DNA from: Armatimonadota bacterium
GTDB lineage: Bacteria; Armatimonadota; Fimbriimonadia; Fimbriimonadales; Fimbriimonadaceae
Assembly: GCA_017303935.1 (NCBI GenBank)
Contig: JAFLBD010000001.1
Span: 372,001 to 436,000 of the forward strand
Direction of reading: 5' to 3'
Length of the DNA: 64,000 nucleotides
The notes under the pieces were generated by a model. That model searched no databases. It was given only the letters and a program-made list of their open reading frames with translations, and was not told the DNA's origin. A program made the translations under genes and the position numbers. Each line of letters begins with the position of its first letter. Within the stretch, counting starts at the first letter, position 1. Below are positions 40,229-44,303 of this stretch, one piece after another.

Positions 40229-41152
40229 TTACTTGCGGCGCCTTCGCAGCAACAATCCCGCCAATCCGACGCCAAATCCGAGATAAACGCCCGGTTCTGG
40301 AGCGATCATCACCGCAATGTCGCGCGGCTGCTGCAATATCCCGGTTCCGTAGGTACCTAACGTCCCGCCAACGCCAAGCGAACGGCGATACAACGCGCCG
40401 CTCGTATTCCCAAAATTGCGCCCAGAGGCGTAATAGGTGTTGCCGTGAGCAAAAGCAAGGCCCTTAATCACGCTCGCTTCGTCAACAGTATTCCAAGGCA
40501 TAGTGGAACCACTTGCGTACCCGCTGTGCGCGTAATGTACGCGGTTGTTTCCGCCGTCCGCCACTCCAAAATAGGTGCCATTCGCCATCATTTGGCCGTA
40601 TCCACCATTGGTCGTCGTCAAATAAGTGTTGATCACGGTCGCTGTGCCGCCCCAACTGGTCGTCGAATAAGAACGAACGCGCGATCCAGTAATATCTGCG
40701 GCCATCAAATTACCTTGGTACTTGGTGATGCCACCATAAACCGATGACGCAGGCATGAACATGCCGTTGTAGTACCCATCGAAGTTTGGAATAAAGCCGC
40801 CGAACCAGTTTAACGAGCTGGTAAATGTCCCCAAATTTTGTCCGGGCGCATACTCCGTCAAGTGCGTAATGTTGTAAACCCCAATCGCGTTGACCAAAGT
40901 GCCACTCCAGAGGTCAAATTGGAAGAAACCGTTTGCGGCGCCCACAAATAGCCGGTTATTGACCTTATCAATCTGGATGGACTGTGGATCAACCAGCGCG
41001 CCGTTGCCGATTGTGCCCAAATAGACCCCAGAATCGCCATCAAAGCGGTGGATGCTATCCGTGCCAACGTCTGCGACGAAAATCAAATCAAAAGTAGCGT
41101 GCGCTTGGCCAATAATCCCCAAGCTCATCCCAACGAGTAGCGTTCTCTTCAT
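40229..41152 (-). CDS. PEP-CTERM secreted repeat protein, paralogue 1
   Basis: A 307-residue exported protein. Signal peptide residues 1-20 (KRTLLVGMSLGIIGQAHA) are followed by FDLIFVADVGTDSIHRFDGD and SGVYLGTIGNGALVDPQS, an NHL/propeller-like module that tracks a value along a path. The C-terminus is a PEP-CTERM sorting signal: APEPG, a hydrophobic stretch (VYLGFGVGLAGLLL) and RRRRK, the substrate of an exosortase. No exosortase gene is in the window. Last of three tandem paralogues; its ATG overlaps the stop of the preceding gene by 4 bp, so the three form one operon. Ligand and role are unknown. Confidence 0.86.
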   Translation of the reverse strand: MKRTLLVGMSLGIIGQAHATFDLIFVADVGTDSIHRFDGDSGVYLGTIGNGALVDPQSIQIDKVNNRLFVGAANGFFQFDLWSGTLVNAIGVYNITHLTEYAPGQNLGTFTSSLNWFGGFIPNFDGYYNGMFMPASSVYGGITKYQGNLMAADITGSRVRSYSTTSWGGTATVINTYLTTTNGGYGQMMANGTYFGVADGGNNRVHYAHSGYASGSTMPWNTVDEASVIKGLAFAHGNTYYASGRNFGNTSGALYRRSLGVGGTLGTYGTGILQQPRDIAVMIAPEPGVYLGFGVGLAGLLLRRRRK

Positions 41153-42078
41153 GCTTTTTTCCTTTTCTTAAACAAAATACCCAAGATTCCTAACCCGATA
41201 GCGGCGAATTGTGCAGGCTCTGGAGCGGCGATTACGGCGACATCGCGAGGTTGTTGCAAAATCCCCGAGCCATAAGTGCCAAAGGTGCCGGGATATCCAG
41301 AGTTTCTGCGAACTAATAAGCCTGAAGTGTTTGCTGCATTCCTGCCCGAAGCATAATAAAATCCATTATGCGCAAATGCCGCACCCGATACCGAAACAAG
41401 TTCGGTAATTGGATTGAATCCCATAGTAGTGCCATCAGCCCACGCGACGGACGCCGTGTGAAGTCGATTGTTAACTCCGTCTGCCACGATGATTTGTCCG
41501 TTAGAATTAACTGAAAGCTGGCCCGTAATTCCTGTTGAAAACATATTATATGATTTGTTCAGGGTTGCGTTGCCGCCAAATCCGCCATAGTTATAGGTTC
41601 GAAGCCTCCCGTTTGTCGCATCCACGGCTAACAAAAAGTTGCCATACATTCCTATTCCGCCATATAGCGAAGTTGCCGGCATATTTTGTCCAATATATGC
41701 ACCATCAAAACCGAGATACATCCCAGCGAAGAAGTTTTGACTTGTGGAATAAGACCACATCATCTTATTCTCTGCTACATACATTGCATGGTGAGCATTT
41801 CCGGTAGATGTCATGTTCAACAAGTTGCCATTCCAAAGATTCATTTGGAAGACACCATTTCCTGCGGTAACCGTGATGCGATTGTTCGCTTGATCAATCG
41901 CCATGCTCATTGGATCGATCAAGAATCCCGCGCCAAACGAACCTAAATACACACCTGTATCGCCATCAAACCGGTGGATGGAGTCTGTTCCAGTGTCGGC
42001 GACGAAGACCAGATCAAAGCTCGCGAAGGCCGAAGTGCCCAAGCCAAAAACAGCAGCAATAGTCAGTAACCTTTTCAT
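41149..42078 (-). CDS. PEP-CTERM secreted repeat protein, paralogue 2
   Basis: Middle copy of the tandem trio, 309 residues. The signal peptide (KRLLTIAAVFGLGTSAFA) precedes FDLVFVADTGTDSIHRFDGD and TGVYLGSFGAGFLIDPMS, nearly identical to its neighbours, while the central part (residues about 95-250) has diverged. The C-terminal sorting signal is APEPAQFAAIGLGILGILF followed by KKRKK, with lysines in place of the arginine cluster. Base composition is visibly more AT-rich than in the flanking copies. It is 11 bp after paralogue 3 and overlaps paralogue 1 by 4 bp. Confidence 0.86.
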   Translation of the reverse strand: MKRLLTIAAVFGLGTSAFASFDLVFVADTGTDSIHRFDGDTGVYLGSFGAGFLIDPMSMAIDQANNRITVTAGNGVFQMNLWNGNLLNMTSTGNAHHAMYVAENKMMWSYSTSQNFFAGMYLGFDGAYIGQNMPATSLYGGIGMYGNFLLAVDATNGRLRTYNYGGFGGNATLNKSYNMFSTGITGQLSVNSNGQIIVADGVNNRLHTASVAWADGTTMGFNPITELVSVSGAAFAHNGFYYASGRNAANTSGLLVRRNSGYPGTFGTYGSGILQQPRDVAVIAAPEPAQFAAIGLGILGILFKKRKKA

Positions 42079-42089
42079 ATATAACTCGA

Positions 42090-43025
42090 TTATTTCTTAA
42101 CAGATCTGCGTCGGCGCAAAGCCAAACCGGCCAAACCAAGACCAAACGCAACATAAGCACCAGGTTCCGGAGCGGCGATCACAGCGATGTCGCGTGGATT
42201 TTGCAAAATCCCGTTTCCAAAAGTTCCAATAACGCTCGAACCACCCAAAGCGCGACGAGTGAGCAATCCACTCGTGTTAGCAGCATTGCGTCCTGCCGCA
42301 TAATACACAGAATTGTGGCCGAAACCAACACCGTAGACCGTCGAAAACTCTCCTAAAGACTGAGATATCAAAGTCGAACCGTAAGAAGTCGAAAAAGTGG
42401 CGTAGTTGATTTGATTTCCTAAGCCAGAGGCGAGAACAAATCCACCGAAACCGGCCGCAATCTGACCTGTCATTCCGGCTGCCGTTGCATTGTATGTGCC
42501 TAGTGTGGCGGTTGGATTATTAAACGTGTTGGCTAGCAAGGAATAGACAACACCCGTCGTCGAGTTAAGCGCTAAAAGATTTGTACTACTCCGCATCGTA
42601 ATTGCGCCCCACTGCGAACTTGATGGCACTGTCGTGCTCGAACCATAACCGTTAACAGGTTCCGTAAGGCTTCCCAGCCAACTATAATTGCCGTTCCAAG
42701 AAGTTAAGTACTTGCCGGCAGAATATTGGGTCATGTGGTTGGAAACCGTAATGGTGGAATACCCCATCATTGTGCCCGTCCATAGGTCATAAGTAAAAAT
42801 GCCATTAACAGCACCTACAATCAAGCGATTATTGGTTTGATCTACGACCAATGTATTCGGATCCGTAAGAGCACCCGCGCCCATCGAGCCCAGATATACG
42901 CCGCTGTCGGCATCAAATCGATGGATGCTATCCGTTCCCACATCCGCCACAAAAACAAGATCGAAGCTCGCCAAAGCCGCACTCGGCAGCACGCAAGCGG
43001 CACAAGCCAACGCAAAAAATCTCAT
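42090..43025 (-). CDS. PEP-CTERM secreted repeat protein, paralogue 3
   Basis: First gene of the operon on the minus strand, 311 residues. The signal peptide (RFFALACAACVLPSAALA) is followed by the shared FDLVFVADVGTDSIHRFDAD and SGVYLGSMGAGALTDPNT. The C-terminus is APEPGAYVAFGLGLAGLAL with RRRRSVKK. A TATACT hexamer (43034-43039) lies 8 nt before the ATG, so transcription probably starts at or just before the start codon; no good -35 is visible. Upstream, on the other side, is the 21-bp palindromic repeat array. Confidence 0.87.
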   Translation of the reverse strand: MRFFALACAACVLPSAALASFDLVFVADVGTDSIHRFDADSGVYLGSMGAGALTDPNTLVVDQTNNRLIVGAVNGIFTYDLWTGTMMGYSTITVSNHMTQYSAGKYLTSWNGNYSWLGSLTEPVNGYGSSTTVPSSSQWGAITMRSSTNLLALNSTTGVVYSLLANTFNNPTATLGTYNATAAGMTGQIAAGFGGFVLASGLGNQINYATFSTSYGSTLISQSLGEFSTVYGVGFGHNSVYYAAGRNAANTSGLLTRRALGGSSVIGTFGNGILQNPRDIAVIAAPEPGAYVAFGLGLAGLALRRRRSVKK

Positions 43026-43149: not shown

Positions 43150-43527
43150 GAAATGGCCGAAAACGCATTTTGAAAAAAGAAAATATTCAGTGAAATCGCT
43201 CCATTACGATATGAAATCGGAGCAATACAACGTTGTATTAGCGCGTTTTCATATGAAATTGCCGGAAAAACACATGAAATCGCCGCGATTCGATATGAAT
43301 TCGCCGCGGTTTCACATTGAATAAAGAAAAATTTGAGTGAAAACGGAGCATTTTGATATCAAATCGGAGCGATTTTACATCGTATTGGAGCGATTTCATA
43401 TAAAAATGGAGCGATTTGATATAAAACCAGAGCGATTTCAATTCGTATCGCAGACTCTACTATAAGTAACGGACAGTGTTTATATGGAATCGCCGCGATA
43501 CCGAATGAAATGCCTCCAATCCGCAGA
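43150..43527. repeat. Array of about 18 tandem 21-bp palindromic units
   Basis: A diverged tandem repeat with a strict 21-bp period. Unit starts fall at 43150, 43171, 43192, 43213, 43234, 43255, 43276, 43297, 43318, 43339, 43360, 43381, 43402, 43423, 43444, 43465, 43486 and 43507. The consensus is a 7-bp arm GAAATCG, a 3-nt centre (mostly GAG or CCG), the complementary arm CGATTTC, and an ATAT linker, so each unit is an imperfect palindrome and so is the join. Best units are 43276, 43297, 43360, 43381 and 43402; 43171 and 43318 are the most decayed. Because 21 is a multiple of 3, short frames with a heptapeptide theme (MKSPRFD) appear on both strands, but stops and lack of codon bias argue against a gene. 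Function unknown. Confidence 0.9.
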
Positions 43528-43673
43528 ATGTCGGCTCTGCATCTGGCACGCGTCGGGCGTCGATTTCGCTAGTTTCCGAAAATTCCTGGCGGTTCGCCCT
43601 AAAGTACAAGAATAGCCGACCGAAGATATTCATAGCACCCGCAGGATTGTGCGGTGAACAGAGTAAAAGATTC

Positions 43674-44303
43674 ATGTCAAACTTTACACTTCCAACAGCT
43701 GAAGGCAACCTGATCGCCTTCTTCAACAACTTTTCGACCGCGATGGATGCCTACAGCGCCGCGCTCGGCTTTGATGCCGGCGATGAGGCCGCCTGCAAGG
43801 ACGCTTACGACGATTTCTTGGCGGATTTCAATGCTGCTGAAACAGCAAAGGCCGCTTATCGTGGTGCGGTGAGCACTAAATCGAAGCAACGCAAAACCAG
43901 CAGCGACATCGTTCGCGACTACGCCCAGCAGATCAAAAATAACCCTGCAGCGACGCCAGAAATTCTGACCGCGTTCGGCATTTCGACCACTCCTGCGGGA
44001 AGCGGACCAGTGGTGACGCCAACCAACTTTACGCCGAATCCGAGCGCAAATGGCATTTGCAAACTCACCTGGAACAAGGCGGGCAATGCGGCTGGAACGA
44101 CCTATGTGATCGAGTACAGCGCGAACGGATCGAGCTGGAATTTCCTCGGAACCACTACCGCGGCCAAGTTCACCGACACGAACGCGACCGCTGGTGTGGC
44201 ACGGTACTACCGAATTCGCGCGGCGCGATCGGGCAACAACAGCCCTTGGTCGTCCACCATCGCGATTTATCTGGGCGGATCTTCGCTCAGCCTCGCAGCT
44301 TAA
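43674..44303 (+). CDS. Helical N-terminus plus fibronectin type III domain protein
   Basis: A 209-residue protein with no signal peptide. The first about 105 residues are alpha-helical and alanine-rich (AYSAALGFDAGDEAACKDAY and onward), with a central NNPAATPEILTAFGI. After a Pro/Thr linker an FN3 domain follows (about 112-203), with KLTWNKAGNAAGTTYVIEYS, SWNFLGTT, RYYRIRAARS and NNSPWSSTIAI. Similar helix-plus-FN3 proteins of about 210 residues occur in many environmental bacteria with no known role. The ATG at 43674 is preferred over a TTG/ATG-like start 9 codons upstream. It is bracketed by the repeat array upstream and a strong terminator downstream. Confidence 0.8.
   Translation: MSNFTLPTAEGNLIAFFNNFSTAMDAYSAALGFDAGDEAACKDAYDDFLADFNAAETAKAAYRGAVSTKSKQRKTSSDIVRDYAQQIKNNPAATPEILTAFGISTTPAGSGPVVTPTNFTPNPSANGICKLTWNKAGNAAGTTYVIEYSANGSSWNFLGTTTAAKFTDTNATAGVARYYRIRAARSGNNSPWSSTIAIYLGGSSLSLAA

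Follow-up and report, generated by a model that had tools for sequence, protein, structure and literature searches.

The hmw genes of Haemophilus carry 7-bp repeats upstream and represent contingency loci of surface families. In Mycoplasma gallisepticum, GAA repeats are located upstream of the promoters of the vlhA genes, and one repeat sequence is common to the paralogues (PMC6258824). Here, we present an analysis of a tandem array of 21-bp units in the genome of a bacterium of the phylum Armatimonadota (Fimbriimonadaceae, assembly GCA_017303935.1). The array is located on a stretch of 64,000 nt, the whole of which is referred to as the window (contig JAFLBD010000001.1, positions 372,001 to 436,000). 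Like the vlhA and hmw loci, a tandem array of this kind occurs once per paralogue, adjacent to its promoter, and stepwise changes in copy number are possible. In contrast to these loci, where a unit of 3 or 7 bp is common to the paralogues, every gene here has a private sequence and only the period of 21 bp is common. Repeat-controlled multigene families such as vlhA are the nearest working analogy.

Other described elements resemble the array in part. Iterons and tandem operators, as found at plasmid origins and partition sites, likewise consist of direct repeats at a spacing of about two turns of the helix, each of which can bind protein on one DNA face. Unlike iterons, the window array has no adjacent replication or partition gene, none being seen among its neighbours (FN3-family, PEP-CTERM, carboxypeptidase-like and ribonucleotide-reductase-like genes), and many arrays of unrelated sequence are present per chromosome. 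REP, BIME and REPIN elements are also short extragenic palindromic units and are sometimes clustered; they consist of one sequence in many dispersed copies, whereas the arrays studied here are phased and single-copy with the exception of one related pair. Phasing at the helical period 5′ of bacterial promoters is known from curved A-tract DNA, but here the full 21-bp unit is repeated, and some arrays are GC-rich and have a low predicted curvature. No description of such arrays was found in the literature searched, which excludes most subscription journals. The name ARRPOF was rejected as an identity, as it denotes an unrelated Fusobacterium plasmid RNA. The window array is one case of a phylum-wide pattern at most genes of an undescribed family and probably a control region of an undescribed kind. 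The features of the locus are listed in Table 1.

Table 1. Features of the array locus (positions in the window).
Feature	Position	Strand	Remarks
21-bp array, in-phase extent	43150..43527	.	18 units, of which several outer ones are decayed
Strong core of the array	43190..43453	.	about 12.5 units; maximal-scoring 21-bp segment, no indel
Sigma-28-like promoter motif CTAAAGTACAAGAATAGCCGACCGA	43599..43623	+	between array and gene; putative promoter
Family gene (209 aa)	43674..44303	+	helical hairpin, FN3 domain and C-terminal LAA; paralogues present in this genome and throughout the phylum
PEP-CTERM gene	42090..43025	-	divergent from array; recurrent neighbour of the family

The core of the window array scored 50.8 at a period of 21 bp and not more than 1.8 at other periods, and identity at lags of 21, 42 and 63 bp exceeded that of shuffled sequences by 9-11 SD. 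An earlier note on this DNA, made from the sequence alone, had described 18 units on a 21-bp grid. The grid is real over the whole extent, but the units starting at 43150, 43171, 43318, 43444, 43465 and 43507 match the consensus at 6-12 of 21 positions, so that the count of 18 is generous and about 12-13 units are clear; the decayed units comprise the outer and some of the inner ones. The description of the unit as an imperfect palindrome was confirmed, the dyad score of the consensus GAAATCGGAGCGATTTCATAT being 5.2 SD above a null obtained by permuting the 21 columns. The GC content of the array is 38%, compared with 53% for the whole window. The units are contiguous and free of spacers, in agreement with the earlier statement that this is not a CRISPR.

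Phase and symmetry were analysed in 45 arrays with a total length of 7,971 bp. Their units deviate from the consensus of the respective array at 2,221 positions and show not a single indel, although indels are undercounted by this approach since array extents were set by ungapped scoring. For this reason, the 63-bp flanks were tested as well: the exact phase is continued in 24 of 60 flanks, while phases shifted by +/-1 and +/-2 show no enrichment. The proposed constraint on the 21-bp phasing is supported by an exact period and the absence of indels. Dyad symmetry of the units exceeds the column-permuted null (mean z 2.2, t 8.2). Compensatory changes between the arms, a check which the earlier note had suggested, are absent from the window array and from the arrays as a whole, where paired positions within units show no co-variation (mean z -0.04); this counts against hairpins and not against a dyad bound by protein. 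In addition, shuffling of the unit order leaves the folding energy of the arrays unchanged (mean z about 0). Dyad symmetry lacking co-variation, together with this indifference to order, is more readily reconciled with binding sites of a symmetric protein than with base-paired RNA hairpins, and a reading as DNA sites is favoured.

The genome contains only one related array (C2:761558-761852, 73% identity over 187 bp). It keeps the 21-bp phase, as do dozens of arrays of unrelated sequence in relatives, which answers the question of whether copies elsewhere are phased. The unit sequence is absent from 112 other genomes of the class, and scans of public genome and viral collections with the unit pattern returned, outside arrays, chance palindromes only. 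A blast match in G010 was discarded as a chance similarity of 25 bp within an acetyltransferase-like coding region. A palindrome dispersed in many copies was not found, and the view that the array is not a known REP or BIME form could be upheld. A scan covering 478 kb of this genome revealed five prominent arrays with a 21-bp period, which are the sole substantial tandem arrays of that size class in the sample. The other periods from 15 to 30 bp gave weak segments only, the strongest at 15 and 18 bp, with the exception of a stretch of Ns and of one harmonic of the arrays with the 21-bp period. A joint search with ten further arrays of this genome located each of them at its own position alone, apart from one weak partial match.

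Three arrays of this genome are distant from family genes, and one of the three is flanked by convergent genes. The related array (L033) and a further one (L134, C2:781236-781443), both away from family genes, have a common 3′ flank, CACT-AATATTTTG...CAATAGGTTCATTTGAACCT, and a similar sequence is present on the minus strand of the window (43192-43130). The idea of a mobile element, based on the terminus AATAGGTTCATTTGAACCT common to array2 and L134, was abandoned: although 8 flanks show enrichment of the core motif, it does not form a consistent end.

The gene downstream of the window array starts 147 bp 3′ of it. The array goes with this gene, and the earlier characterization of the locus as having no gene is therefore unsupported in a functional sense. 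The long helical hairpin of the encoded protein comprises helices 10-31 and 35-88. Neither the whole family protein nor its N-terminal part is recognised by Pfam or NCBIfam, fold searches yielded FN3 domains only among the matches listed, and no relatives were found in plasmids, phages or viral contigs. The family is multicopy and often adjoins PEP-CTERM genes, and both families are repeatedly found side by side in relatives. In the window itself, three tandem PEP-CTERM paralogues with a TDSIHRFD motif are located upstream of the array (40229-43025). Nearly every family member found in the class ends with Ala-Ala, often as LAA, which resembles the end of SsrA-type degrons.

The association with the family was studied at 54 loci from many genera of the phylum, a sample which includes orthologues, so that the loci are not statistically independent. 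A 21-bp array, counted at a score of 7 or more within 760 bp of the gene, is present upstream of the gene at 41 of the 54 loci and downstream at one (Fisher p 3e-17). At the same loci, other periods from 15 to 30 bp gave between 0 and 2 arrays, and with the loci oriented by gene the best period among 18-24 bp was nearly always 21, mostly upstream. Of the 10 family members that searches recovered from this genome, 9 possess an array. The pattern also occurs in other families of the phylum and includes members whose C-terminal part is not matched by the FN3 profile. Unit sequences of paralogues are unrelated; the arrays are gene-private and mostly of unrelated sequence, and the period is always 21. 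Among 26 control loci, one (L077) shows a clear array. A centromere-like or boundary role, as suggested in the earlier note, is unlikely because the arrays are numerous, gene-private and mostly located 5′ of one gene family.

The array of L077 (2559-2673) occupies the syntenic place in a congener, where it follows an NrdJ-like gene and is located 5′ of a PEP-CTERM gene; the 21-bp array is kept there with an unrelated sequence, and no FN3-family gene is present. Two different repeats were observed near family genes: a strong tandem 30-bp/15-bp repeat that lies 600 bp 5′ of a family gene and is distinct from its 21-bp array (L149, 481-867, G028), and a telomere-like array of 7-bp repeats (GGGGTTT variants) adjoining a family member (L114, 1974-2233, G001:C11).

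The sigma-28-like motif CTAAA-N11..19-CCGA is present within 160 bp of the start in 7 of 51 family upstreams compared with 3 of 436 other upstreams (p 9e-6). At the window gene and at a few other members it separates the array from the start codon. A sigma-28 regulon is characterized by TAAA-N~15-GCCGATAA upstream of its genes together with FliA; a FliA/WhiG sigma factor is above cut-off in this genome, which also encodes FlhA, and the motif is restricted to a minority of family members. FlhA is above cut-off in 16 of 19 genomes and missing from some with strong arrays. G222 is such a genome, with a strong array and no FlhA match, and the arrays are therefore not simply flagellar.

Comparison of orthologues revealed an array identity of 96% in one pair, where third codon positions are 78% identical, and of 80-86% in further pairs with 52-76% at third codon positions; these arrays are essentially gapless. 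Copy number is kept between species in L119/L120 and L109/L112, and the arrays of L056 and L057 differ by exactly one 21-bp unit. L056 and L058 have unrelated arrays upstream of genes that are 70% identical. The sequence is thus constrained within a lineage yet replaceable, and the period is kept.

From these data, we propose a model in which a symmetric protein binds one face of the helically phased array of dyad-symmetric sites, located upstream of the promoter, and in which this array controls the adjacent paralogue; we give it tentatively, at slightly less than an even chance. The window array would serve the FN3-family gene as a regulatory array upstream of its promoter, and every unit would be a twofold-symmetric DNA site. 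Since 21 bp correspond to two helical turns, all units would present the same face. The binder may be a dimeric DNA-binding or architectural protein that assembles cooperatively along one side of the array and would in this way determine transcription of the adjacent downstream gene. In some members, control might pass through the sigma-28-like promoter located between the array and the start codon. Arrays could lengthen or shorten in whole 21-bp steps and could be swapped for new sequence, which would keep the helical phase and make the array of every paralogue private. Gene-private sequences would need many binders or one sequence-tolerant binder, which speaks against an operator model, and the array turnover in L056/L058, the three arrays away from family genes and the minority of members with a sigma-28-like motif are also counted against it.

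Among the rivals to an operator array, curvature alone was ranked first, followed by copy-number contingency, then RNA structure and then a selfish satellite. A repeated 21-mer adds small bends in phase and could thereby form a curved segment upstream of the promoter independent of its sequence, which accounts for a fixed period with free sequence. Predicted curvature, calculated with assumed wedge angles, averages 0.92 deg/bp in arrays and 0.43 deg/bp in genome windows. Values above the 95th percentile were obtained for 22 of 45 arrays, the window array reaches the 99.9th, and values are modestly above those of column-permuted arrays (mean z 0.86). Nevertheless, the strong arrays of L056, L111, L159 and L171 have average or low predicted curvature, and bending leaves the dyad symmetry and the sequence conservation between some orthologues without explanation, so we regard curvature alone as unlikely. 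More doubtful is a contingency locus, in which slippage would shift the 21-bp copy number and tune or switch each paralogue in steps that hold the helical phase. It is consistent with a multigene family having one tandem array per gene close to the promoter, with the one-unit difference of L056/L057 and with the vlhA precedent in M. gallisepticum (PMC6258824). However, with a unit identity of about 50% many arrays are too diverged for frequent slippage, copy number is steady between species in the two pairs named above, and the paralogues do not have the same unit upstream.

If the array were a leader or small RNA composed of hairpins, stable folding would be in line with this, and the window array indeed folds better than dinucleotide shuffles (z -6.3 and -6.7 on the two strands), as do arrays in general compared with column-permuted versions (mean z -1.7). 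This stability results from the dyad repeats; neither co-variation within units nor dependence of the energy on unit order was detected, and Rfam gave nothing above threshold for the window array, which leaves a structured transcript improbable. Even less probability is assigned to selfish or neutral quasi-palindromic satellite DNA, generated by template switching and having no host role. Such DNA would agree with the orphan arrays, the terminal sequence common to array2 and L134 and the complete sequence turnover in some orthologues, but not with the placement 5′ of one gene family (41/54 vs 1/54), the evolution of arrays more slowly than third codon positions in several pairs or the lack of indels. 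Finally, a decayed repeat coding for heptapeptides is suggested by 21 being a multiple of 3 and by one stop-free frame in some arrays. It is highly improbable: the window array has stops in all six frames, no ORF through the repeats and no codon-position signal, in line with the earlier view that it is not a clear minisatellite gene; stop counts and codon-position variability of 29 arrays equal expectation; and other multiples of 3 show no upstream enrichment. An intact heptapeptide gene, named beforehand as an observation that would speak against DNA sites, was not found.

Returning to the operator array, we consider it evenly balanced whether such arrays constitute a new class of bacterial cis-elements, in which the helical period of 21 bp and the unit symmetry are conserved instead of the sequence, and in which a private phase-locked array individually addresses the expression of each paralogue throughout the phylum. 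If this is true, it would be a regulatory DNA element defined by its geometry and not by its sequence, which motif and homology searches would miss, and it would be tied to a widespread uncharacterised gene family. A period scan upstream of paralogues offers a way to find such elements. The control of individual members of bacterial multigene families by helical phasing of private repeat arrays would also become directly testable.
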